Assembly: GCA_027485645.1 (NCBI GenBank)
Contig: JAIXQR010000002.1
Location: 1 to 64,000 of the forward strand
Origin: a bacterium
GTDB lineage: Bacteria > Armatimonadota > Fimbriimonadia > Fimbriimonadales > Fimbriimonadaceae
Direction of reading: 5' to 3'
Length of the DNA stretch: 64,000 nucleotides
Shown one piece after another: positions 1,394-64,000 of the stretch. Position 1 is the first letter of the stretch; every line of letters starts with the position of its first letter. Under the pieces are notes generated by a model, which ran no database searches, had not been told where the DNA came from, and saw only the letters and a program-made list of their open reading frames with translations. A program made the translations under genes and the position numbers.

Positions 1394-3568
1394 ATGAGCC
1401 AACCCAACTCCATTCGAAACGTGTGCGTCATTGGTGCGGGAACCATGGGAAGCGGGATTGCGGCCCACTTGGTCAACCTCGGTCTCAAGGTCACCCTGCT
1501 CGACCAGACGATGGAGCGGGCGGTTGTCGGCTTTGACCGCGCAAAGATGGCCAAGCCTCCGCACTTCTTTCTGCCAGAGCGAGCAAGCCAGGTTCGATTA
1601 GGCGGCGTTGACCTTAATTGCGAGTGGATTCGAGAAGCGGACTGGGTGGTAGAAGCGGTTGCAGAAAAGCTGGAGATTAAACGCGACCTTTACGCCGCGA
1701 TTGAACCGTTCCTGCGGGCTGATGCATTCATTTCCACCAACACGAGTGGCCTAGAAATTGCTCATCTCGCCGAAGGGCGATCCGAGTCTTTTCGGCGCCG
1801 ATTTGTTGGAACACATTTTTTTAATCCGCCACGATATCTCAAGCTTCTAGAACTGATTCCAACCTCTGAGACCGACCCGCAAGTTGTTGAGACCCTGACG
1901 GCGTTCCTCGAAGATTCGGTCGGTCGAAGGGTTGTTCCGGCAAAAGACACGCCTGGTTTCATTGCGAATCGGTACGGAATGTGGTGCATGTATCTGGCAA
2001 CCCACGTAGCGGAAAAGCTTCGGCTCACCGTGGAACAAGTGGATGCGATCACCGGACCATTCATTGGTCGCCCAAAGAGCGGAACGTTTCGGCTGAACGA
2101 TCTCGTGGGCCTCGACGTGATGGAGGATATTGCGAGCAACTTAATCCAGCGTTGTGTCAATGACGCTCACACCGGCGTTCTGCACCGACCAACCTCGATC
2201 AATTCCTTGATGGCGCGTGGGTTTCTCGGCGAAAAGTCTGGCCAGGGCTATTACCGGCGCGATGGCAAGCAACTCCTTTCTTTCGATCTCGTGACGAATA
2301 CTTACCGCGAACGGATCGAACCGGACCTCCCTTCGATTTCTGAGTTTGGAAAGTTGCCGTTAGCGGATCGACTTCGATCAGCCTTAGCGGCGAAGGATGA
2401 AGTCGGGGAGTACTTGCGGATGTACTTGCTTCCAATCCTGCGTTACGCGAACGTGGTCAAGGAAGAAGTGTCTTACAACGTCCAAGACTTCGACCAGGTG
2501 ATGAAGTGGGGATTCGGCTGGGAGATGGGGCCGTTCGAGATGATCGACGCGATTGGAGCTGAGCAAGTTGGAGTTGAGCCGGTCAAGTTCTATTCCGAAG
2601 GCAAGATTCGAAGCTTCGCAGGCGAGTACGTCGAACCCGTCGCGCGGCCCGAGTACGTCACGCTGGCTGACCTCCCGGTGATGGAGGAGTTTGAAACGTT
2701 CCGAGTTCAGGACATGGGAGACGGCGTTCGCGCCGTCGTGCTGAAAACCAAGCTTGGTCTCATCACCCCGGCGCTGGTTGAAGGCTTGTCGCGATGGCTC
2801 ACGAGTCAGCCAGATGCGCCGCTGGTGCTGACCACTCCCGGAAAGGCCTACAGCGTTGGGTTTGATCTGAACTTCTTTAACGATGCCATCCAGAAAGAAG
2901 AATGGGCGAGCATTGATGCTGCCCTTCAGGACCTGCAGACCCTGGGCGAACTCTTAGAATCCCGTCGAACCGTGGCGGCCATCCACGGCTACGGCCTCGG
3001 GGCAGGGTACGAACTGGCGCGATCTTGCAGCCGAATTGTCGCGGCGGCCGATGCGCAGATAGGACTTCCCGAATCGAAGGTCGGTCTGCTACCCGGCGGG
3101 CGTGGCGTGACCCTCATGCGATTGCGACACCAAAGCACAGCAGCAACCCTTGCGGACGCTTGTCTCACTTTGACGGAAGGCAAGACCAGCATCAATGCCG
3201 ACCAAGCCCGGTCTCTCGGCTATCTCGGTGCTGAGGATGTCACTTGCTACCACCCGGACCGTTTGCTGTGGCAAGCCAAACAGGTTGCACTGCAGGTTGA
3301 AGTAACGGCCCGACCCGAGTGGAAAGATGTCGTCGGCCCAACCGTCGGGATGATCGATCGCCTGCAAAAGGAAAAAATGGCCAAGGGCGAACTGACCGAG
3401 TACGACGAAGTGATTGGTGACCGCTTGAAGGCGATCTTTGCAAAAACTAACTCGTACGAGAATGCGCTTCGAATGGAGCGATCGGAGTTTCTCGACCTTT
3501 GTCAGCGCAACCTGAGCCAAGTCCGGTTGCGCCACATGATTGAGAACAAGGTTCCGCTGCGTAACTAA
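1394..3568 (+). CDS. Two-domain 3-hydroxyacyl-CoA dehydrogenase / enoyl-CoA hydratase (FadN-like)
   Basis: This 724-residue protein joins an N-terminal NAD-dependent 3-hydroxyacyl-CoA dehydrogenase (Rossmann GAGTMG at residues 14-19, STNTSG, GTHFFNP) to a C-terminal enoyl-CoA hydratase fold (HGYGLGAGYELARS, LPESKVGLLPGGRG). The order, dehydrogenase first, is that of Bacillus FadN rather than E. coli FadB. It should carry out the hydration and NAD-dependent oxidation steps of fatty-acid beta-oxidation in the cytoplasm. No thiolase or acyl-CoA dehydrogenase lies beside it. It is transcribed divergently from infC across about 100 bp. The ATG at 1394 is preceded by GAGAAGC, a weak ribosome binding site. 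Confidence 0.92.
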   Translation: MSQPNSIRNVCVIGAGTMGSGIAAHLVNLGLKVTLLDQTMERAVVGFDRAKMAKPPHFFLPERASQVRLGGVDLNCEWIREADWVVEAVAEKLEIKRDLYAAIEPFLRADAFISTNTSGLEIAHLAEGRSESFRRRFVGTHFFNPPRYLKLLELIPTSETDPQVVETLTAFLEDSVGRRVVPAKDTPGFIANRYGMWCMYLATHVAEKLRLTVEQVDAITGPFIGRPKSGTFRLNDLVGLDVMEDIASNLIQRCVNDAHTGVLHRPTSINSLMARGFLGEKSGQGYYRRDGKQLLSFDLVTNTYRERIEPDLPSISEFGKLPLADRLRSALAAKDEVGEYLRMYLLPILRYANVVKEEVSYNVQDFDQVMKWGFGWEMGPFEMIDAIGAEQVGVEPVKFYSEGKIRSFAGEYVEPVARPEYVTLADLPVMEEFETFRVQDMGDGVRAVVLKTKLGLITPALVEGLSRWLTSQPDAPLVLTTPGKAYSVGFDLNFFNDAIQKEEWASIDAALQDLQTLGELLESRRTVAAIHGYGLGAGYELARSCSRIVAAADAQIGLPESKVGLLPGGRGVTLMRLRHQSTAATLADACLTLTEGKTSINADQARSLGYLGAEDVTCYHPDRLLWQAKQVALQVEVTARPEWKDVVGPTVGMIDRLQKEKMAKGELTEYDEVIGDRLKAIFAKTNSYENALRMERSEFLDLCQRNLSQVRLRHMIENKVPLRN

Positions 3569-31623: not shown

Positions 31624-32598
31624 TTAAACCGATCGAACTGGTCGAGCCATCAGTTGACTCACCGCATCGCTCGGCGAGAGGTGGTGATGCATGACCTGAT
31701 GAATCGTCCGAAGGACCGGCAGTTCCAAACCGTGCCGGTCGCCGAGGATGATCGCCGACTCGCACGAGGAGATGCCTTCGACCACTTGGCCAATCTCGGC
31801 CAGCGCATCCGCAAATAGTTTTCCTTCGCCAATGGCCCGACCAAATCGGTAGTTTCGCGAAAGTCGGCTCGCCGCGGTGGCAAACAAATCTCCCACGCCC
31901 GCTGGTCCAAGAAAGGTCTCCATTTTTCCGCCCATGGCAACGCCTAACTTTGCCAGATCCACCAGGCCACGCGAAAGAAAGGCGCCTTTGGTGTTGTCTC
32001 CATAACCAAGTCCGTCAGACATTCCTGCCCCGATCGCCAGCACGTTCTTTAGCGCGCCGGCAATCTCGACACCGATGACATCGGCGGACGGTGAAACGCG
32101 AAACATTGGGGTGAGAAATGTGGCGGCGACTTCGCCCGCCGTCTTCGGCTCTCGGCTTGCCGCGACGGCCACGGTGGGAATTTGACGGGCGATTTCGACG
32201 GCGAGGTTCGGCCCGCTGAGGACGGATAGTTCGCTTCCGGAGCGCTCTTCGGCGACAACGTCGACGAGCAGCTTGGCGGATCCCGCCTCGAGGCCCTTTG
32301 CCGCAACCACAACGAGCCGAGTCGCCGAAGGAATCTCTCTCGCCATTTCCCGCACAGCATCGGAAGGGACCGCAATAACCGCCATTTCGGCTACCGGAAT
32401 GCCATCCTGCAGAGGAAGGCAATCCAAATTGCTGGGGAATTGGAAGCCAGGTAGATAGTGGCGATTCTCTCGATGGGTCTGCATTTCTGCAATTTCTTCG
32501 CGGTTTCGACCAAGCAGTTGAACCTGATGCCCGTTGCGAGCCAGCAGGATCGAAAGAGCGGTGCCCCAGCTTCCGGACCCGAGAACGGCGATCTGCAT
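31624..32598 (-). CDS. gpsA: NAD(P)-dependent glycerol-3-phosphate dehydrogenase
   Basis: The 324-residue protein begins MQIAVLGSGSWGTALSILLA with the Rossmann site, and has ELSVLSGPNLAVEIARQIPT, the catalytic lysine in EIAGALKNVLAIGAGMSDGL and NTKGAFLSRGLVDLAKLG. It makes sn-glycerol-3-phosphate for phospholipid synthesis. The frame extends 36 nt upstream, but homology starts at the ATG at 32598. It is flanked by a strong terminator and by the repeat-rich spacer. Confidence 0.97.
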   Translation of the reverse strand: MQIAVLGSGSWGTALSILLARNGHQVQLLGRNREEIAEMQTHRENRHYLPGFQFPSNLDCLPLQDGIPVAEMAVIAVPSDAVREMAREIPSATRLVVVAAKGLEAGSAKLLVDVVAEERSGSELSVLSGPNLAVEIARQIPTVAVAASREPKTAGEVAATFLTPMFRVSPSADVIGVEIAGALKNVLAIGAGMSDGLGYGDNTKGAFLSRGLVDLAKLGVAMGGKMETFLGPAGVGDLFATAASRLSRNYRFGRAIGEGKLFADALAEIGQVVEGISSCESAIILGDRHGLELPVLRTIHQVMHHHLSPSDAVSQLMARPVRSV

Positions 32599-32722
32599 AT
32601 GCCAAGAACTATAGACCCAACGGAGGCGGACCATGAGTTGGTGGGCAGAAGATATGCCTTTGAGGGCAGTTTCGGCTATGGGCTCATTGCGTTTTCGACT
32701 AGAGGAACAAGCGGCAACTGAA

Positions 32723-32999
32723 GTCTTCGACCCCTGCCCGGGTCGTGATGCGGGCTCGCCGGTCCAGGCATTTTCAATGCCTGGCTACCTTCTTTGACCC
32801 CTACCGGGGTCATGACCCTTCGCGGATGATGCGTGTCAGACCGAATTGCCCAAGTTTCTGGCCATTTGTATAGGCGCGATTGATGATTCCGAGTTGATAG
32901 ACATTCGCTCCGGCTATCCCAGAGCGCTTGAAAAGGGTAGTCGGCCGAAAATGCCCGGAAGGTGTCGACTGTGCCCGTGTCCTATGCGTTGAGGTCTCG
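32723..32999. repeat. Hairpin-rich intergenic element, copy A (about 277 bp)
   Basis: This lies in the 918-bp gene-free spacer 32599-33516. It aligns over its whole length with copy B at 33061-33337. It starts GTCTTCGACCC and contains in order a GACCCC/GGGTC hairpin, the palindrome CCAGGCATTTTCAATGCCTGG shortened here as CCAGGCATT...AATGCCTGG (32763-32783), a second GACCCC/GGGGTC hairpin, a less structured middle and a degenerate 3' arm. No gene is encoded. Limits are approximate. Confidence 0.75.
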
Positions 33000-33060
33000 A
33001 CGCCTTGACTTCACTATGAAGCGCTGAAAGCGTGCACAGATCTAAAAACGATGTGGTTGA

Positions 33061-33337
33061 CTCTTCGACCCCTGCCGGGGTCGGATTTCGTGCTCGCCGG
33101 TCCAGGCATTTTCAATGCCTGGCTACCCTCTTTGACCCCGACCAGGGTCTTGACCCTCCGTGGATGATGCGCGTAGAGCAATCCGCCAACGAGTTTTCGC
33201 AGGCTGGGTTAGCGCGATCGCATATGCCGAGTTGAGAGATTCTCGGTCCGGCTATCCCGGAGGGATTGAAGAAGGTAGCCAGGCATTGAAAATGCCTGGA
33301 AGGCGTCGGCTGGACCCACCCCTTGTGGGTCGAAGAC
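33061..33337. repeat. Hairpin-rich intergenic element, copy B (about 277 bp)
   Basis: This copy is better preserved. Its 5' end CTTCGACCC (33063) is inverted at its 3' end GGGTCGAAG (33327-33335). CCAGGCATT...AATGCCTGG at 33102-33122 recurs near the 3' end (33279-33299), and GGCTACC near 33122 is inverted as GGTAGCC near 33272. The unit is therefore a large imperfect inverted repeat built of small hairpins, like a non-autonomous MITE or a REP-cluster. It is separated from copy A by 61 bp. The 180 bp from 33338 to the next gene show nothing else. Confidence 0.75.
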
Positions 33338-33516
33338 TCGTTGTCCAGTTGGTATCAAGTCTGCGACCCCCGGTTGCTGAACGTCGAGGCACCGATTCCA
33401 GGTAGTGGTGGAAATGAGAACGATGGCCTGTTATTGAAGACTGCGAACCGTTCGCACGCCAAAGATTCGTTGAACGGGTACTTTCTGAACGGAGCAGCGT
33501 CGCTCTCGAAAGCAAC

Positions 33517-36475
<2,959 letters not shown>

Positions 36476-59263: not shown

Positions 59264-59310
59264 GCGCTTTGAGCTTCGCGCTTTGCATGGCCTTGCCTGG
59301 CTTTGCGTGG
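59264..59310. repeat. Short dispersed repeat, copy 1
   Basis: The stretch beginning GCGCTTTGAGCTTCGCGCTT recurs at 61825, with the following GGCTTTGCGTGG-type words shuffled. It is in the gene-free spacer 59248-59546, which also holds a 7-bp inverted repeat (59325-59331 with 59352-59358) around a C-tract. No gene or clear promoter was seen in the rest. Confidence 0.6.
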
Positions 59311-59546
59311 CCTGGGTGGTCGGTGTAATTATTGCTCCCCCCCAGACGGATTAATTACTTACGGGCCGTTTTAGGTTCGGATGGGGCGTTTTGGGCTGGT
59401 GCGCTCTGCGTGGCAGACACACCCTATTGCCGTCTCAAAGGAGGAAAGTCAACCAGCGATTTTGATTATTTGCCTGGAGAAGAGTGACAAGAACAGGGCC
59501 CTCATCTGAGCGTTCTCGGATTACAATGACCACAGAGAGGTACGAC

Positions 59547-59882
59547 ATGACGAGCCCGCCACGCTATTGGATTGGAGTTGTGCTGCACCTCGTGGTTTTG
59601 TGCGTTGCTTACGGGCTGCGAATGGCGGGCGAAGTGCCCGATGGGTTCGGACCTTCGAGCATTTTTTGCTTAGGGAGTGCTCAGGTTTTTATGGGGCACC
59701 GCGCTCCGCGACAGCACGAGTTGGTGGAACACTTCGGCCGGGACGTCGTTTGGCCGGTTTTTCTGGTGGCAGGCCTGGCGATCAACGTCATGCCGCCGGA
59801 GATTTTCATTGGCTACTGCGTTCTGTTTCTGGTCGGCGCGTTCTTTATGAAGCCGGGCGCGAGTCGAGAGCAGGCCGCTTGA
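59547..59882 (+). CDS. Small three-helix membrane protein
   Basis: Starting at the ATG at 59547 (GAGAGG 8 nt upstream) gives 111 residues with hydrophobic stretches WIGVVLHLVVLCVAYGL, VVWPVFLVAGLAINVM and IFIGYCVLFLVGAFFM. A GTG at 59484 would add 21 non-hydrophobic residues. No family was recognised. It is a single gene. Confidence 0.6.
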   Translation: MTSPPRYWIGVVLHLVVLCVAYGLRMAGEVPDGFGPSSIFCLGSAQVFMGHRAPRQHELVEHFGRDVVWPVFLVAGLAINVMPPEIFIGYCVLFLVGAFFMKPGASREQAA

Positions 59883-59976
59883 TACTGGGCCTGTCTCGGC
59901 AACCTTCAAGCCGCCTCCCTTGGTTCGAGCGTTAGGCTTTCAGGACGTAAGGTGGAAACTTACAGTAGTTAAGGCT

Positions 59977-60414
59977 ATGGCAAAAGGCGTTTCAACGACA
60001 CTCCGAACACGGTTGAACGTTTCGGCGTTTCTTAAGTGCTCCGCTGAGGATCAGGCCACCTTCCTCTTTGACCTTCGTTGGGAGCGGGGTAATCGGACCA
60101 AAGTCGTCAAGCGGTTTCTCTTGCGACTGACGGAGCGATTTGACGCGCTCGACCAGGAACCTGCATTGGCTTTGCTTGAAGTGCTCTTTAATTGCCGGGT
60201 GCTTCGGGCTCGGGCGTTCATTCGGAGAATGCTCCGGTCGAGCGATCCGAACGTTCGGTTCTTTGCGTCTGACTGGCTCCGCTTCTATGGCCAGAAGAGG
60301 GATCTTGCCCTGCTCAAGCCTCTTTACAGTGATCACCGGGTTACTTGGCCGTTTGGGGATACAGTTTCTTCATGTGCCCACGTGGCAAAGCTTTCCATCC
60401 TGGGAAGAGAGTGA
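59977..60414 (+). CDS. Uncharacterised protein with HEAT-like helices
   Basis: From the ATG at 59977 (AAGG upstream) the 145-residue protein is basic and helical (FLFDLRWERGNRTKVVKRFL, LLEVLFNCRVLRARAFIRRM, RSSDPNVRFFASDWLRFYGQ). The last pattern recalls HEAT-type repeats but is too short to name. An earlier GTG-type start at 59920 is possible. No partner gene. Confidence 0.55.
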   Translation: MAKGVSTTLRTRLNVSAFLKCSAEDQATFLFDLRWERGNRTKVVKRFLLRLTERFDALDQEPALALLEVLFNCRVLRARAFIRRMLRSSDPNVRFFASDWLRFYGQKRDLALLKPLYSDHRVTWPFGDTVSSCAHVAKLSILGRE

Positions 60415-60915
60415 GTAGGTTTCGGGGCGTTTGAGGTTTACGCTAGAATCGCAATTATCCACGCCACTTCAGGGTCCGTGTTTTCTGGGACTAGGCGGAT
60501 AATGTCGGATCGATCTACTTAAAATGGCCATGTGAGATATCAAGGAAGGAGGGTTCTTTTTCTGTCCTCAAAAGTCACGCCGTTCAGATTGCAATGGCCA
60601 AGGCGCGCGGACGATCGATACCATGCAGAGGGTGAGCGGTGTTGAGACGGGCAACGAAACGAAGAATGCTTTATTCAGGCATCTCGATCATTCCGGCCAT
60701 GTCGTACCATTGATATATTTCCAGCTATGCATGGCTATGGACGGGCAATCTAGGAGGGATATTTGACATCTTCAATGATCCACTGTTTCAGTGCCAGGTC
60801 ATTTTCTCGATTGTTCTCTTCTGCAACTGGCAGTTTGGTCGAGTCGCGGTTCGCAAACTGAAGCAAGCGTTCAGGACATGATGAATAGTAGTTCCCGTGT
60901 TAATGGAAATCGGAG
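60415..60915. other. 501-bp gene-poor spacer
   Basis: No convincing gene is present. TTTACGCTAGAATC near 60433-60447 could be a -10 region. An open stretch without a usual start, 60714-60881, reads as a hydrophobic peptide (GGIFDIFNDPLFQCQVIFSI then VLFCNWQF) and may be a fragment of a decayed membrane gene. The last 60 bp lie upstream of the gene at 60916. Confidence 0.5.
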
Positions 60916-61407
60916 ATGAAGGAGACACGAGAAGGATTGAGTGATTTTTCTGCCTGGAAAGCGGGCGAGTTGATTGGGGCGATCATGGACAGATATGCGA
61001 TCGATTTAGAAATTCCACCGGTCGAGGAGGGTTCGAAGTTTGTCGACATCGTCTTCGAACTTTTTCAATCGGACGAGGATGGAAGGGCGGAATTGGCGAC
61101 GAACTTGACGGCTGTCCTGATTGAGCACGCTCGGAAGGTGGGCGATTTTGAAGCGGTGATAGGGCTTTCAAGTCGTCTCGTGTCGACCGTGCGTTCTGAC
61201 GACGACAACGACAACGATATTCTGATCGTGACGGCGCAAGAGCTTCGATCTGCTTTGTTTTGGCAGTACTTAGTGACAAAAAATGTGGATAAGAGGCTGC
61301 TCAGAACTTCTAGCCAGTTGGCGGCGGCGATTTGTAAGTGTTCGGAGCACGAGATGCTCAGACTTGAAGCAGCGCTGACGCAGGGAGTGCGGGCACTCAC
61401 CGGATGA
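60916..61407 (+). CDS. Uncharacterised acidic protein
   Basis: The 163-residue protein (start MKETREGLSDFSAWKAGELI) is soluble, acidic and mostly helical (FVDIVFELFQSDEDGRAELA, TNLTAVLIEHARKVGD), with an acidic stretch SDDDNDNDILIV. No family was recognised. Its acidic nature and place next to an Rhs region are compatible with an immunity-type protein, but this is only suggestion. The ATG at 60916 follows GGAGATGAAG-type weak signals. Confidence 0.58.
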   Translation: MKETREGLSDFSAWKAGELIGAIMDRYAIDLEIPPVEEGSKFVDIVFELFQSDEDGRAELATNLTAVLIEHARKVGDFEAVIGLSSRLVSTVRSDDDNDNDILIVTAQELRSALFWQYLVTKNVDKRLLRTSSQLAAAICKCSEHEMLRLEAALTQGVRALTG

Positions 61408-61436
61408 GTTTCGTGGTTTGAAGTTTTGTGACGGTC

Positions 61437-61814
61437 ATGAAGGCAATTTCGTCGGACAAGGTCAAGCGTTTTCGGGCGGCGGACTTGGTTTCTTGGCTGA
61501 TTGTCATTGCCGTGTGTGGAGCGGTGTCGTTTTGGTTTCTCAAGCAGTTTGATACTTCGGATTTTGAGAGGGCGGCGAAGGGGTTGGTTGGGAAGCGGAG
61601 CCAGGAAGTTCGAAGCAAGTTGGGAGCGCCGGATGAAGTGCATCCGGCCGCGGTGTTCAATCGGTCGGTTCGATCGGATATCCGGGTGTCGTTTGTTCCT
61701 AAGGAGATTCCGGTGGCTCGGGGTTCGGTTTGGCTGTACAACCGGATGCTGACGATGGTGTTGGTCTTTGTTGAGGAGGATAAGGTTGTGGAGGTTTACG
61801 TTGGGAAGACGTGA
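61437..61814 (+). CDS. Single-helix protein with SmpA/BamE-like domain
   Basis: From the ATG at 61437 (a GTG at 61428 is an alternative) the protein has one N-terminal helix (DLVSWLIVIAVCGAVSFWFL) and a small domain, GLVGKRSQEVRSKLGAPDEV then RGSVWLYNRMLTMVLVFVEE, matching the two-helix/three-strand SmpA/OmlA (BamE-like) pattern. Such domains are usually periplasmic and bind other proteins. There is no lipobox. It starts 29 nt after the acidic protein and may be co-transcribed. Confidence 0.62.
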   Translation: MKAISSDKVKRFRAADLVSWLIVIAVCGAVSFWFLKQFDTSDFERAAKGLVGKRSQEVRSKLGAPDEVHPAAVFNRSVRSDIRVSFVPKEIPVARGSVWLYNRMLTMVLVFVEEDKVVEVYVGKT

Positions 61815-61824
61815 CTAGCGGGCG

Positions 61825-61875
61825 GCGCTTTGAGCTTCGCGCTTTGCGTGGCTTTGTGTTGCCTTGCGTTGCGGA
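61825..61875. repeat. Short dispersed repeat, copy 2
   Basis: This begins with the same GCGCTTTGAGCTTCGCGCTT as 59264 and continues with GGCTTTG/GCCTTGCG words. It lies in the gene-free stretch 61815-62084 before the Rhs remnant. Confidence 0.6.
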
Positions 61876-61954
61876 GGAAAGTGTGACGGTTGTTCTCGGA
61901 ATTGGGTTTGAATTCGGCGTGCGTCGATGAACTGTGAGTCAGATAGTGGCTCCA

Positions 61955-62058
61955 ACCGCCAAAAGCGGCGGCAGAGCCTCCGCACTCCAAAGTGTTTCGG
62001 CTGTTCGGGTCCTCATCCCCAACCCCTTCTCCATCGGAATGGAGAAGGGGCTCACGCG
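61955..62058. repeat. Composite intergenic repeat, copy 1 (with 12-bp hairpin)
   Basis: The first half reads ACCGCCAAAAGCGGCGGCAG (a CCGCC/GGCGG hairpin) and ends TTTCGGCT; the second half is a perfect 12-bp stem with a CGGA loop (62023-62034 with 62039-62050) followed by CTCACGCGG. The same two modules recur at 63869-63978, and the second alone at 63746-63813. Copy 1 ends right where homology to the Rhs gene begins. Confidence 0.8.
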
Positions 62059-62084
62059 GTTTCTCGTGTACGATAGACAGGAAC

Positions 62085-62756
62085 ATGACGGCATGTTTGT
62101 TGCGTGATGGAGCGGGTGGGTTTACTTTGACTTCGCGCCGGGCGTATGACCCTTGGGGAGCGATGCGGCAGTGGGGGACTCATCCCAGCGGAGCTTCGGC
62201 TTACCAGGGCGCGCCTTCTAACCGCTACGTGGGTTCGCTGGGGCACCAGCAGGATGACGACTCAGGCCTGTACTATATGCGTGCGCGGTACTACGAGCCG
62301 GGGTCGGGACGGTTTATCAGTGAGGATCCGGCGATGGATGGTGGAAATTGGTACATCTATTGCGGCAATGATCCAGTAGCTCGGTACGATCCGTCCGGCA
62401 AAGCTTCGGAAGACATCCTGACTTTCATAGCTGGTTCGCTGCTCATGGGCTTCGGCCTTCTCATTCTGGGCATCGCGCCGTGGTGCGCGGAAGCATGGGC
62501 GGGAATCTCCAGCATGAAGGCTCAGTGCGCAAAGTTAACTGCATCTGGTTTAGACGGAGAGTACGTTAGGCACCTTGGCCGCCAAATCGATAAGTTTGAC
62601 AAGCAGGTTAGAGTAGCTCGGACAGCAGGAGCTGGGATGGCTGGAATCGGTGCTGTGCTAATGATGTGCGCTGGGCGAGAAATGATTCGTTTGTCTCTTT
62701 TGATGGATATTGAACTTGTCGGCACGGAGTATGACATTCTATGTACATTCTTCTGA
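62085..62756 (+). CDS. Rhs core C-terminal fragment with hydrophobic tip (possible toxin)
   Basis: The 223-residue frame (ATG at 62085, AGGA just upstream) contains the Rhs-associated core: RYVGSLGHQQDDDSGLYYMR, ARYYEPGSGRFISEDP and YCGNDPVARYDPSG. The large N-terminal Rhs shell is missing; upstream homology breaks at a 2-nt deletion beside a repeat. After DPSG (residue 105) the sequence changes to a tip of about 118 residues with two hydrophobic segments (DILTFIAGSLLMGFGLLILG and AGAGMAGIGAVLMMCAG), the place where polymorphic toxins sit. It is either a remnant or an orphan toxin module. Confidence 0.78.
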   Translation: MTACLLRDGAGGFTLTSRRAYDPWGAMRQWGTHPSGASAYQGAPSNRYVGSLGHQQDDDSGLYYMRARYYEPGSGRFISEDPAMDGGNWYIYCGNDPVARYDPSGKASEDILTFIAGSLLMGFGLLILGIAPWCAEAWAGISSMKAQCAKLTASGLDGEYVRHLGRQIDKFDKQVRVARTAGAGMAGIGAVLMMCAGREMIRLSLLMDIELVGTEYDILCTFF

Positions 62757-63094
62757 CAGATTGGAAAATTGTAGGTCTTTGTGTAACGATTCTTGTTGGT
62801 GTGTATCGTGTGTTTTTCCTTGCATCACTTCGTAACAGCTTGACGTTGTCGTTGCGCAAGAAAGTGCTCTTGGCACACGGGGCAGAAGTAGCAACAGGCG
62901 CGGTACTCACGATCGTGTTCACTCACGTTTCAGCAGTGTCTACGGGCCTATCGGTAGTAGCATTTCTCCTAGATCTATCGAGCGCAATGCATGACTTCAC
63001 TTTTCGGAAGGGATTTAATTTTTGCCGACTTTTCTCGATGTTCATCTACTGGGTTGCAGCGGTCAGCGGCATAGTAGCGTTCAGAACTGGCTAA
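62741..63094 (+). CDS. Membrane protein after the Rhs tip, candidate immunity protein
   Basis: The 117-residue protein has about three or four hydrophobic helices (WKIVGLCVTILVGVYRVFFL, AEVATGAVLTIVFTHVSAVS, GLSVVAFLLDLSSAM and LFSMFIYWVAAVSGIVAF). It overlaps the Rhs tip gene by 16 nt, the tight spacing typical of toxin-immunity pairs. A membrane-embedded immunity protein would suit a pore- or membrane-acting tip. No family was recognised; the role is inferred from position. Confidence 0.6.
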   Translation: MYILLTDWKIVGLCVTILVGVYRVFFLASLRNSLTLSLRKKVLLAHGAEVATGAVLTIVFTHVSAVSTGLSVVAFLLDLSSAMHDFTFRKGFNFCRLFSMFIYWVAAVSGIVAFRTG

Positions 63095-63115
63095 TATTTT
63101 CGTTACGACGGTCAG

Positions 63116-63379
63116 ATGGGGGTTCAGGATGTGGAGACTTCGGGTCCAGTGGGGTCACAGGTGATTTCCGCAGTGAACCGGTATGCGCTCGGCGCTCGCG
63201 GGGTGGATATGATTTCTCGGACGACGTCTTCTAGTACGACCTTGAGCTATCCGGTGTACGATGATCACGGGAACATGACGGCGTGTTTGTTGCGTGATGG
63301 TGCGGGTGGGTTTACTTTGACCTCTCGCCGGGCCTATGACCCTTGGGGAGCGATGCGGCAGTGGAGGACTCATAGGTGA
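63116..63379 (+). pseudogene. Second, truncated Rhs core fragment
   Basis: The frame reads VNRYALGARGVDMISRTTSS, then LSYPVYDDHGNMTACLLRDG and SRRAYDPWGAMRQW, ordinary Rhs core sequence, and stops just after. About 100 bp (63273-63373) repeat 62084-62184 with few differences. Homology ends at the word GGACTCAT in both copies. It lacks shell and tip, so it cannot be a working Rhs protein; it looks like a displaced core end left by recombination. Confidence 0.8.
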
Positions 63380-63413
63380 TTCTAGGTGAGTTCATTGCGA
63401 AGGACGCAAACCT

Positions 63414-63650
63414 ATGATTGAAAAGAATGCGGTTCGGCTGCGAATGCAGACATTGTTATATAACCTAGTCTCAATTTTTGCTTGGTCACTCTTTCTCTTT
63501 GTTGTTCATGTTAACGACAATAAGAAACTAACGGAACGGCCCTTGGGGATGATCGCCATTGGTGGCTTATCCCTATCGCTAATCTTCACCATAGTCCAGT
63601 TAATTCGGGTTATTAGAGCGCGCAATGTGAAAAAGTCTTCGGGTAACTGA
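63414..63650 (+). CDS. Small two-helix membrane protein, possible orphan immunity protein
   Basis: The 78-residue protein has two helices (LLYNLVSIFAWSLFLFVVHV and GMIAIGGLSLSLIFTIVQLI) and a basic end. AAGGA lies 9 nt before the ATG. It follows the truncated Rhs core by 34 nt, the place expected for an immunity gene whose toxin tip has been lost. No family was recognised. Base composition here is lower in GC than its neighbours. Confidence 0.55.
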   Translation: MIEKNAVRLRMQTLLYNLVSIFAWSLFLFVVHVNDNKKLTERPLGMIAIGGLSLSLIFTIVQLIRVIRARNVKKSSGN

Positions 63651-63745
63651 AGCCGGGCGATACATTGGGATTGAGGCGAGGTTTTTGGTCGGCGGCTCAC
63701 CCCCCTCCACTCGCTCGGAAGCGAAAGCAGAGGGCTCGAGATCGA

Positions 63746-63813
63746 AAGTTTCGGCTGTTCGTATCCTCATCCCCCGACCCCTTCTCCATCGGAATGGAGA
63801 AGGGGCTCACGCG
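63746..63813. repeat. Composite intergenic repeat, copy 2 (hairpin half only)
   Basis: This starts AAGTTTCGGCTGTTCG and contains the identical 12-bp stem with a CGGA loop (63778-63789 with 63794-63805), followed by CTCACGCGGG. The CCGCC half is absent. It lies in the gene-free stretch 63651-64000. Confidence 0.8.
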
Positions 63814-63868
63814 GGTTTCGGCTGCGCTCGGGCTGGGAGTTTGAACTCCAAGTTGGTTGGTGAATCCG

Positions 63869-63978
63869 ACCGCCAAAAGCGGCGGCAGAGCCGCCGCACT
63901 CCAAAGGGTTTCGGCTATGCGTTTCCTCATCCTCCGTCCCCTTGTCCATCGGAATGGAGAAGGGGCGCGCGCGGGTTG
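63869..63978. repeat. Composite intergenic repeat, copy 3
   Basis: Both halves are present: ACCGCCAAAAGCGGCGGCAG, ACTCCAAAGGGTTTCGGCT and the CCATCGGAATGG hairpin, here with one mismatch in the stem. The rest of 63651-64000 shows no gene; open frames on the minus strand are translations of these repeats. Confidence 0.8.
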
Positions 63979-64000
63979 CGGCTCGGCGCTTGGTCACGGA

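Follow-up and report, generated by a model that had tools for sequence, protein, structure and literature searches.

The window analysed here is the whole stretch of 64,000 nucleotides (G000:C4:1-64000) of an Armatimonadota bacterium, in which the intergenic region between gpsA and a class I/II aminotransferase gene holds two copies, A and B, of an element of ~280 bp (Table 1). Each copy is built of two inverted arrays, left (L) and right (R), and each array comprises, outward from the centre, a hairpin (H1), the tetranucleotide GTAG, a second hairpin (H2, the 21-nt palindrome CCAGGCATTGAAAATGCCTGG) and a third hairpin (H3) at the outer end. Copy B is complete, with both arrays intact, and the right array of copy A is degenerate; the GTAG foot is present at all three intact arrays. 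In the window dimers the tags lie inside (L..R), with an L..R tag spacing of 151 bp and a spacing of 187 bp from the R tag of A to the L tag of B.

Table 1. Parts of the two-copy element and its flanking genes, in window coordinates.
Feature	Position	Strand	Remark
gpsA, NAD-dependent glycerol-3-phosphate dehydrogenase, flanking gene	31624..32598	-	start codon by homology
Copy A: intact left array, spacer y, degenerate right array	32722..33000		
A left array, H3 hairpin	32722..32745	-	22/24 identical in G003
A left array, H2 palindrome	32764..32784	-	
A left array, GTAG tag at H2 foot (CTAC on +)	32785..32788	-	
A left array, H1 hairpin (GACCCCTACCGGGGTC on +)	32796..32811	-	
A spacer y	32812..32914		weakly related to B spacer; no other genome match listed at E 0.01
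A right array, degenerate	32915..33000	+	GTAG 32937-32940, H2 and H3 decayed; 61/95 identical to G003, like spacers
Spacer x between A and B, 58 bp	33001..33058		unrelated to DNA after B; without tnpA remnant
Copy B, complete, both arrays intact	33060..33338		
B left array, H3 hairpin	33060..33084	-	
B left array, H2 palindrome	33102..33122	-	
B left array, GTAG tag (CTAC on +)	33123..33126	-	
B left array, H1 hairpin	33134..33149	-	
B right array, H1 hairpin ATCCCGGAGGGAT	33254..33266	+	basis includes centroid fold
B right array, GTAG tag	33275..33278	+	
B right array, H2 palindrome	33279..33299	+	H1+GTAG+H2 (33254-33300) 47/47 identical in G003
B right array, H3 hairpin and outer end	33313..33338	+	
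Class I/II aminotransferase, flanking gene, divergent from gpsA	33517..34737	+	

The original prediction had placed two full-length copies at 32723-33337, with internal palindromes and matching inverted ends, and these claims were borne out, the coordinates to within one base (32722-33338). Blocks of A and B lie in register at a distance of 338-341 nt, namely D1 (113 nt, 88% identity), D2 (67 nt, 78%) and D3 (53 nt, 72%). The palindrome CCAGGCATTTTCAATGCCTGG occurs three times, at 32764, 33102 and 33279, with 0 or 3 mismatches depending on the strand, and 100 shuffled versions of the window contained 0 matches to the H2 sequence. The left end of A (AGTCTTCGACCC) and the right end of B (GGGTCGAAGACT) match as inverted sequences at 12 of 12 positions, and the two ends of copy B match at 92% over 13 nt. 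Folded as single-stranded DNA, copy B reached -86.5 kcal/mol (z -10.1), a value equalled by 0 of 200 shuffles, and its right array folded alone gave a z of -3.75. Relatedness extends to the middles of A and B (72 identities vs a best of 67 in 200 shuffles), but the DNA following A and that following B are unrelated (32 identities vs a best of 38 in 200 shuffles), so that the copies represent a repeated unit rather than a tandem duplication carrying its flank. The predicted lack of coding capacity held in part: the window shows no tnpA remnant (E 0.75 for the best tblastn match), but short ORFs cross the element. A known RNA family was rejected, an Rfam scan of 32000-34000 giving no family at the gathering score. 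No target duplication was evident by eye beside the element, whose ends are not placed to the base. Other direct repeats occur in the window at 59264-63983 (76 nt in three copies, with CTCCATCGGAATGGAGAAGGGG; 107 nt in two copies at 93%; 91 nt in two copies; 48 nt in two copies).

A search with window positions 32000-34200 in 20 genomes of the genus gave a match in 16. The alignment with the sister genome, G003, showed gpsA, A, B and the aminotransferase gene all kept in place. Between G000 and G003 the intact hairpin parts are 95.3% identical (204/214), as against 67.9% (377/555) for the other intergenic stretches and 64.2% (61/95) for the degenerate right array of A, which serves as an inner control; the coding values were 81.2% (160/197) for a 197-nt part of gpsA and 89.1% (164/184) for a 184-nt part of the aminotransferase gene. 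The difference between hairpins and other intergenic DNA indicates that the hairpins are constrained or homogenised, and the retention of the window elements in two species may reflect either ongoing homogenisation by TnpA or a host role of the hairpins. In G002 the same two genes are separated by only 67 bp between the aligned gene starts, with no array, compared with 918 bp when the window is measured between these starts. The insertion polymorphism to which the original prediction had pointed is therefore seen between species, with the element present in G003 and absent in G002, in a comparison of one filled pair (G000/G003) with one empty genome; the exact insertion point cannot be read from G002 because the flanking intergenic DNA is too diverged. 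In the stretches fetched from other members of the genus, gpsA and the aminotransferase gene were not seen together.

When the element was used as a BLAST query on its own genome, 27 pieces were found at E <= 0.01 and counted as 15 distinct array sites, three in the window, seven on contig C3, two on C7 and one each on C5, C1 and C6, that is, on five contigs besides the window's own. This excludes the outcome named against the original prediction, copies found only here. Reading by eye added two degenerate arrays, the right array of A in the window and L' on C3. Only two Y1_Tnp genes were found in the genome at E <= 0.01, at C3:245644-246084 (tnpA1) and C3:246720-247160 (tnpA2), each coding for 146 aa (start codons by homology), and the two are 73% identical. 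Both are located inside an array cluster on C3 (~245.6-247.2 kb) with the order L R R tnpA1 L L' R tnpA2 L R, and each has an array pointing towards the gene on both sides, these arrays being copies of that in the window and inverted with respect to each other; a transposase gene flanked by the same ends, as had been anticipated, is thus present twice. The L..R tag spacings on C3 are 182, 163 and 178 bp.

Several array sites depart from this design. At G000:C3:~246382 (L029 3304-3414), between tnpA1 and tnpA2, the degenerate left array L' has a different H2 (GGCAG..CTGCC) and the tag GTTG. A dispersed subfamily (G000 C7:1721, C7:2007, C5:47733 and C1:438079; G003 C21, C33, C5 and C9) keeps H1, tag and H2 but lacks an H3 in its normal position, and is embedded in a larger repeat (carrying GCTCCTCGGACTTTTGCGGGTCGGG or a similar stretch); the array site at C6:680323, in a context like that of this subfamily, is further decayed. 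The stretch CTCCATCGGAATGGAG, similar to the window repeat at 59264-63983, is found near the C7 array copies. The array alignment comprised 18 rows, omitting the merged site of G003 described below, the subfamily without H3 and the degenerate right array of A from both genomes and keeping L' of C3; by our reading, one H1 loop base was misplaced by MAFFT between subfamilies. Among the dispersed copies, two comparisons between G000 and G003 gave no clean filled/empty pair: the G000 copies on C7, C5 and C1 match G003 as part of the larger dispersed repeat, with several matches near contig ends. At G003:C3:57623 (L062 ~3124-3150) a merged H3-H2-H3 without a tag stands where G000 has the dimer L247256-R247434, with flanks that are similar by eye; in G003 the dimer appears to have shrunk to one palindrome through deletion of all the DNA that lay between the two. 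There was one tnpA match in G003 vs two in G000.

The two C3 proteins carry DHVH, WQ and YISHQKAHH or YVSHQADHH, and an alignment of 17 TnpAs showed H55, H57, W92, Q93, Y112, Q116 and H120 to be invariant. Both proteins scored above the cut-off of 55 bits for NF033573 (transpos_IS200; 65.6 and 66.2 bits) and matched Pfam Y1_Tnp at E 9e-24 and 3e-23. A profile of the 17 TnpAs searched against the PDB gave eight sequences at E <= 0.01, all named transposase and including the ISHp608 transposase. In the parts of the survey by Quentin et al. 2018 (PMC6006769) drawn on here, subclass 1.2 is characterized by Y---Q--HH, DH[IV]H, WQ, a length of ~148 aa and a low number of diverged copies, has most of its members in Cyanobacteria and Bacteroidetes and carries the entry "no" for REP. 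On its motifs, the C3 enzyme is assigned as a putative IS200-like TnpA_Y1 of the subclass 1.2 type. A classical RAYT was rejected on account of the signature, Y---Q--HH and not Y---NP, and of NF047646 (REP_Tyr_transpos), which was far below its cut-off of 80 bits for one C3 protein (22.8 bits) and was not listed for the other.

Relatives of tnpA were found at E <= 1e-10 in 75 of 251 genomes of the phylum. For 30 of these loci, taken with up to 1.5 kb of flanking DNA, the 500-bp upstream and downstream stretches were scored as inverted repeats of each other against 100 shuffles, and 26 exceeded the shuffles (the exceptions being L075, L087, L094 and L095); as a control, the 41 window ORFs of at least 200 aa scored at most 25. 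The analysis was extended to a named set of 80 loci, the best of at least 575 from a scan with the 17-protein alignment, which covered Planctomycetota, Verrucomicrobiota, Acidobacteriota, Bacteroidota, Methylobacter, desulfo-/Geobacter-type bacteria, Anaerolineales, Fibrobacteres and Armatimonadetes, with no Cyanobacteria; it overlaps the phylum set, as L152 and L168 look like L082 and L084 (identical scores and sequence), a likeness to named Armatimonadetes records from which the window's phylum is deduced. Here the inverted flanks beat 50 shuffles in 73/80 loci, with scores of at least 35 in 69/80, and ten of the 12 Bacteroidota loci among these best 80 were above shuffles, with scores of 31-67. 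Shuffling of flanks and arrays was by two-base blocks and is not strictly dinucleotide-preserving. The Y...Q..H motif was present in 29/30 phylum loci and 77/80 named loci; WQ is not independent in the latter, which were found with a pattern that contains it.

A detector with strict H1-TAG-H2-H3 rules, applied to the strand pointing towards the gene, gave arrays upstream in 38/80 named loci, downstream in 33/80 and on both sides in 27/80, so that about half carry an H1-NTAG-H2-H3 array on at least one side. On the wrong strand the counts were 8/80 and 5/80, and 20 shuffling rounds gave means of 0.0 and 0.05 and maxima of 0 and 1. These counts are underestimates, since the detector catches only one (33276) of the three intact window arrays. 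Among the 80 strict arrays detected in the named relatives the base before TAG was T in 37, G in 28, A in 14 and C in one, and CC followed TAG in 75/80. The canonical GTAG foot therefore holds in the window but not across relatives, where the foot is NTAG, mostly with T or G. In a contrast set drawn with Pfam from the phylum (29 Y1_Tnp loci, five of which were dropped as lacking a usable ORF), seven of the 24 loci kept were of the class 1.1 type (no HH after Y---Q) and 17 of the 1.2 type, some of the latter also belonging to the 30 phylum loci (e.g. L219 and L099). Inverted flanks were found in 2/7 class 1.1 loci, with full arrays in 0/7, vs 15/17 loci of the 1.2 type, with strict full arrays in 3/17 upstream and 1/17 downstream. 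The scarcity of strict arrays among these 17 genes suggests that many have inverted hairpin flanks of another design. Inverted hairpin flanks thus look general for subclass-1.2-like enzymes; the precise three-hairpin TAG form is frequent among them but not present throughout.

Evidence bearing on mobility came from relatives. Several locus pairs without a shared flank (E 1e-20) align over ~670-740 bp, near the outer edge of H1 to H1, as in L113/L121 (86%), L142/L146, L146/L167, L143/L156 and L105/L107. Other pairs behave differently: L113/L119 and L136/L149 share their flanks too (same site), the L117/L120 alignment reaches no further than the stop codon, and in many locus pairs only the tnpA gene aligns. 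Relative to the Methylobacter unit at L121, M. tundripaludum SV96 and Candidatus M. oryzae have just 81 and 54 bp between the aligned flanks. The inserted stretch, of ~1.05 kb and with inexact edges, exceeds the H1-to-H1 unit in length; the alignments to the empty sites end 136 bp and ~245 bp outside that unit, the flanks being too diverged for exact insertion points to be read. The L121 genome also has gene-less R-x-L copies, two of which, on contigs C52 and C108, are 98.5% identical over 336 bp and different outside. The R-x-L tag spacing is 183 bp in these two and 228 bp in another copy there, L249, and both the gene-bearing units and the gene-less Methylobacter copies have their tags outside (R..L). 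Judged from these sequence comparisons, the empty sites for L121 together with the near-identical gene-less copies suggest that elements of this kind have moved recently, outside the window's genus.

The number of array copies varies between genomes. In G001 there were 15 matching array pieces, two of them at the query gene, with two L..R pairs ~190-200 bp apart, and in Haloferula sp. BvORR071 there were 23, two at the gene; the Haloferula array searched in Spirosoma gave no match. The SV96 array was found in two places at E 0.001, both at its own gene. In the Methylobacter genome G255, contigs C9, C12, C21, C95, C97, C102, C108, C117 and C119 begin or end at or near an array, and because so many contigs break there the array copy number is probably higher than assembled. 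Inverted sequence is shared beyond H1 by L250 and L251 (G255:C52 and C108; CGCGCTCAT.GTTATACACAA type), and the right flank of L121 is similar by eye, hinting that the Methylobacter unit may extend past the H1 hairpins. Separately, a dispersed repeat of ~70 bp lies in the flank of the L121 unit (~3109-3182) and recurs many times, mostly at 89-98%, in both G254 (M. tundripaludum SV96) and G256.

Taken together, A and B are best explained as non-autonomous elements of a REPtron-like mobile system with composite ends, a reading to which we assign a probability of roughly 0.8. The proposal of a MITE or REP cluster dependent on a partner enzyme was thus largely right, except that the enzyme is of the subclass 1.2 type and not a classical RAYT; likewise, the repeats are REP-like, but each unit combines three hairpins in a composite array instead of being a single REP. 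If it works in the manner described for TnpA_REP and the IS200/IS605 enzymes in the parts of PMC8266576 used here, TnpA would bind the array in single-stranded form, e.g. where the lagging-strand template is exposed; the NTAG foot may guide the choice of cleavage site, via the HUH motif and tyrosine 112, and the enzyme would cut and rejoin through the tyrosine. Array-bounded segments without a gene could then be moved or copied in trans, with no target duplication. Which unit moved to make A and B, L-y-R or R-x-L, is uncertain, since the window dimers are L..R but the gene-bearing and the gene-less Methylobacter units are R..L. An L-y-R unit is favoured because the middles of A and B are homologous and L..R pairs of similar spacing recur.

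The window could instead be the scar of a lost gene-bearing unit, L-R / tnpA / L-R, from which tnpA was deleted, A and B then being the shells of a former REPtron rather than separate insertions. The order L R L R in the window is indeed the one seen around tnpA2 (L' R tnpA2 L R), and the 187 bp between the tags of R_A and L_B is near the 183 bp of the two near-identical Methylobacter copies, though not the spacing of L249; against this, the window has no trace of tnpA, and the related A and B middles, with no other genome match listed, favour copying of an L-y-R unit. We regard such a scar as unlikely. We are also doubtful that the arrays are immobile host repeats merely used or maintained by a domesticated TnpA, with no present movement: the few and diverged TnpA copies (two genes, 73% identical) and the age of both window copies, which predate the G000/G003 split, would fit this explanation, but the near-identical gene-less copies and the empty site for a gene-bearing unit in Methylobacter, a genus other than the window's, speak against it. 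Finally, a local duplication of a non-mobile intergenic regulatory hairpin (terminator, attenuator or RNA element) would agree with the relatedness of the A and B middles and with hairpins more conserved than the neighbouring coding stretches, as for a functional structure, but appears very improbable given the same arrays on other contigs and around both tnpA genes, which led to rejection of a simple local duplication, the absence of the element between the same two genes in G002 and the lack of an Rfam family at the gathering score in 32000-34000.

Set beside the system which, in the portions of PMC3733652, PMC6006769 and PMC8266576 consulted, comprises REP/REPIN/BIME repeats and TnpA_REP (RAYT) as a REPtron in E. 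coli, Pseudomonas and Stenotrophomonas, the present one shares intergenic GTAG-footed palindromes that stand alone or in inverted pairs, a gene for an HUH/Tyr TnpA with these repeats facing each other on its two sides, and non-autonomous copies elsewhere. It differs in that the protein is class 1 (Y---Q--HH) rather than class 2 (Y---NP), each end has three hairpins, the foot is NTAG in related loci, and the window's genome has ~15 sites rather than hundreds, short of the >100 copies expected of REPs. With IS200/IS605 (subclass 1.1; IS608, ISDra2) it has in common a single-domain HUH/Y1 transposase, the NF033573 score above cut-off, ISHp608 among the nearest solved sequences and, from what is taken here of PMC8266576, subterminal hairpins with a foot tetranucleotide, but its ends are long inverted three-hairpin arrays and the two tnpA copies of the genome are 73% identical instead of near-identical. 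TIRtron/TIRYT genes and double-foot REPs, in the sections of PMC3733652 and PMC6006769 used here, resemble it as Y1 genes bounded by longer inverted repeats, some of which contain self-complementary tracts; their proteins, however, are class 2, 20/26 being subclass 2.1 with an added C-terminal domain, and their common motif is GGGGWSAS. The C3 enzymes agree with TnpA_Y1 subclass 1.2 of PMC6006769 in length (~148 aa), DHVH, WQ, Y---Q--HH and a low number of diverged copies, but most of the genes sampled here are bounded by inverted hairpin repeats, whereas the part of that survey used here gives REP as "no". According to the same text, the automatic repeat search required GTAG or GTGG feet, and we read the mismatch as a limit of that earlier search and not as non-membership in subclass 1.2.

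REPtron-like arrangements are already known. The literature search, which covered open-licence papers of PubMed Central, gave no description of repeats for subclass 1.2, of a link between such an arrangement and this subclass, or of a composite three-hairpin end. It is rather likely, in our view, that TnpA_Y1 subclass 1.2 is an overlooked REP-mobilising class spread across many phyla, with H1 - NTAG-CC - H2 - H3 as its typical repeat, missed because searches required a GTAG or GTGG foot. An HUH enzyme group published as repeat-less appears to have its own repeats, with three hairpins around an NTAG foot that differ from both the single-hairpin ends of IS200/IS605 and the known REPs. Its substrate, polarity and mobility are now testable in cultured strains such as Methylobacter tundripaludum SV96 and Haloferula sp. 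BvORR071. If subclass 1.2 is indeed such a class, its arrays, whether or not they enclose the gene, would account for many dispersed palindromes of Armatimonadota, Planctomycetota, Verrucomicrobiota, Acidobacteriota and some Bacteroidota and Gammaproteobacteria, and thereby offer an explanation for dispersed palindromes in phyla whose REPs have been little studied.
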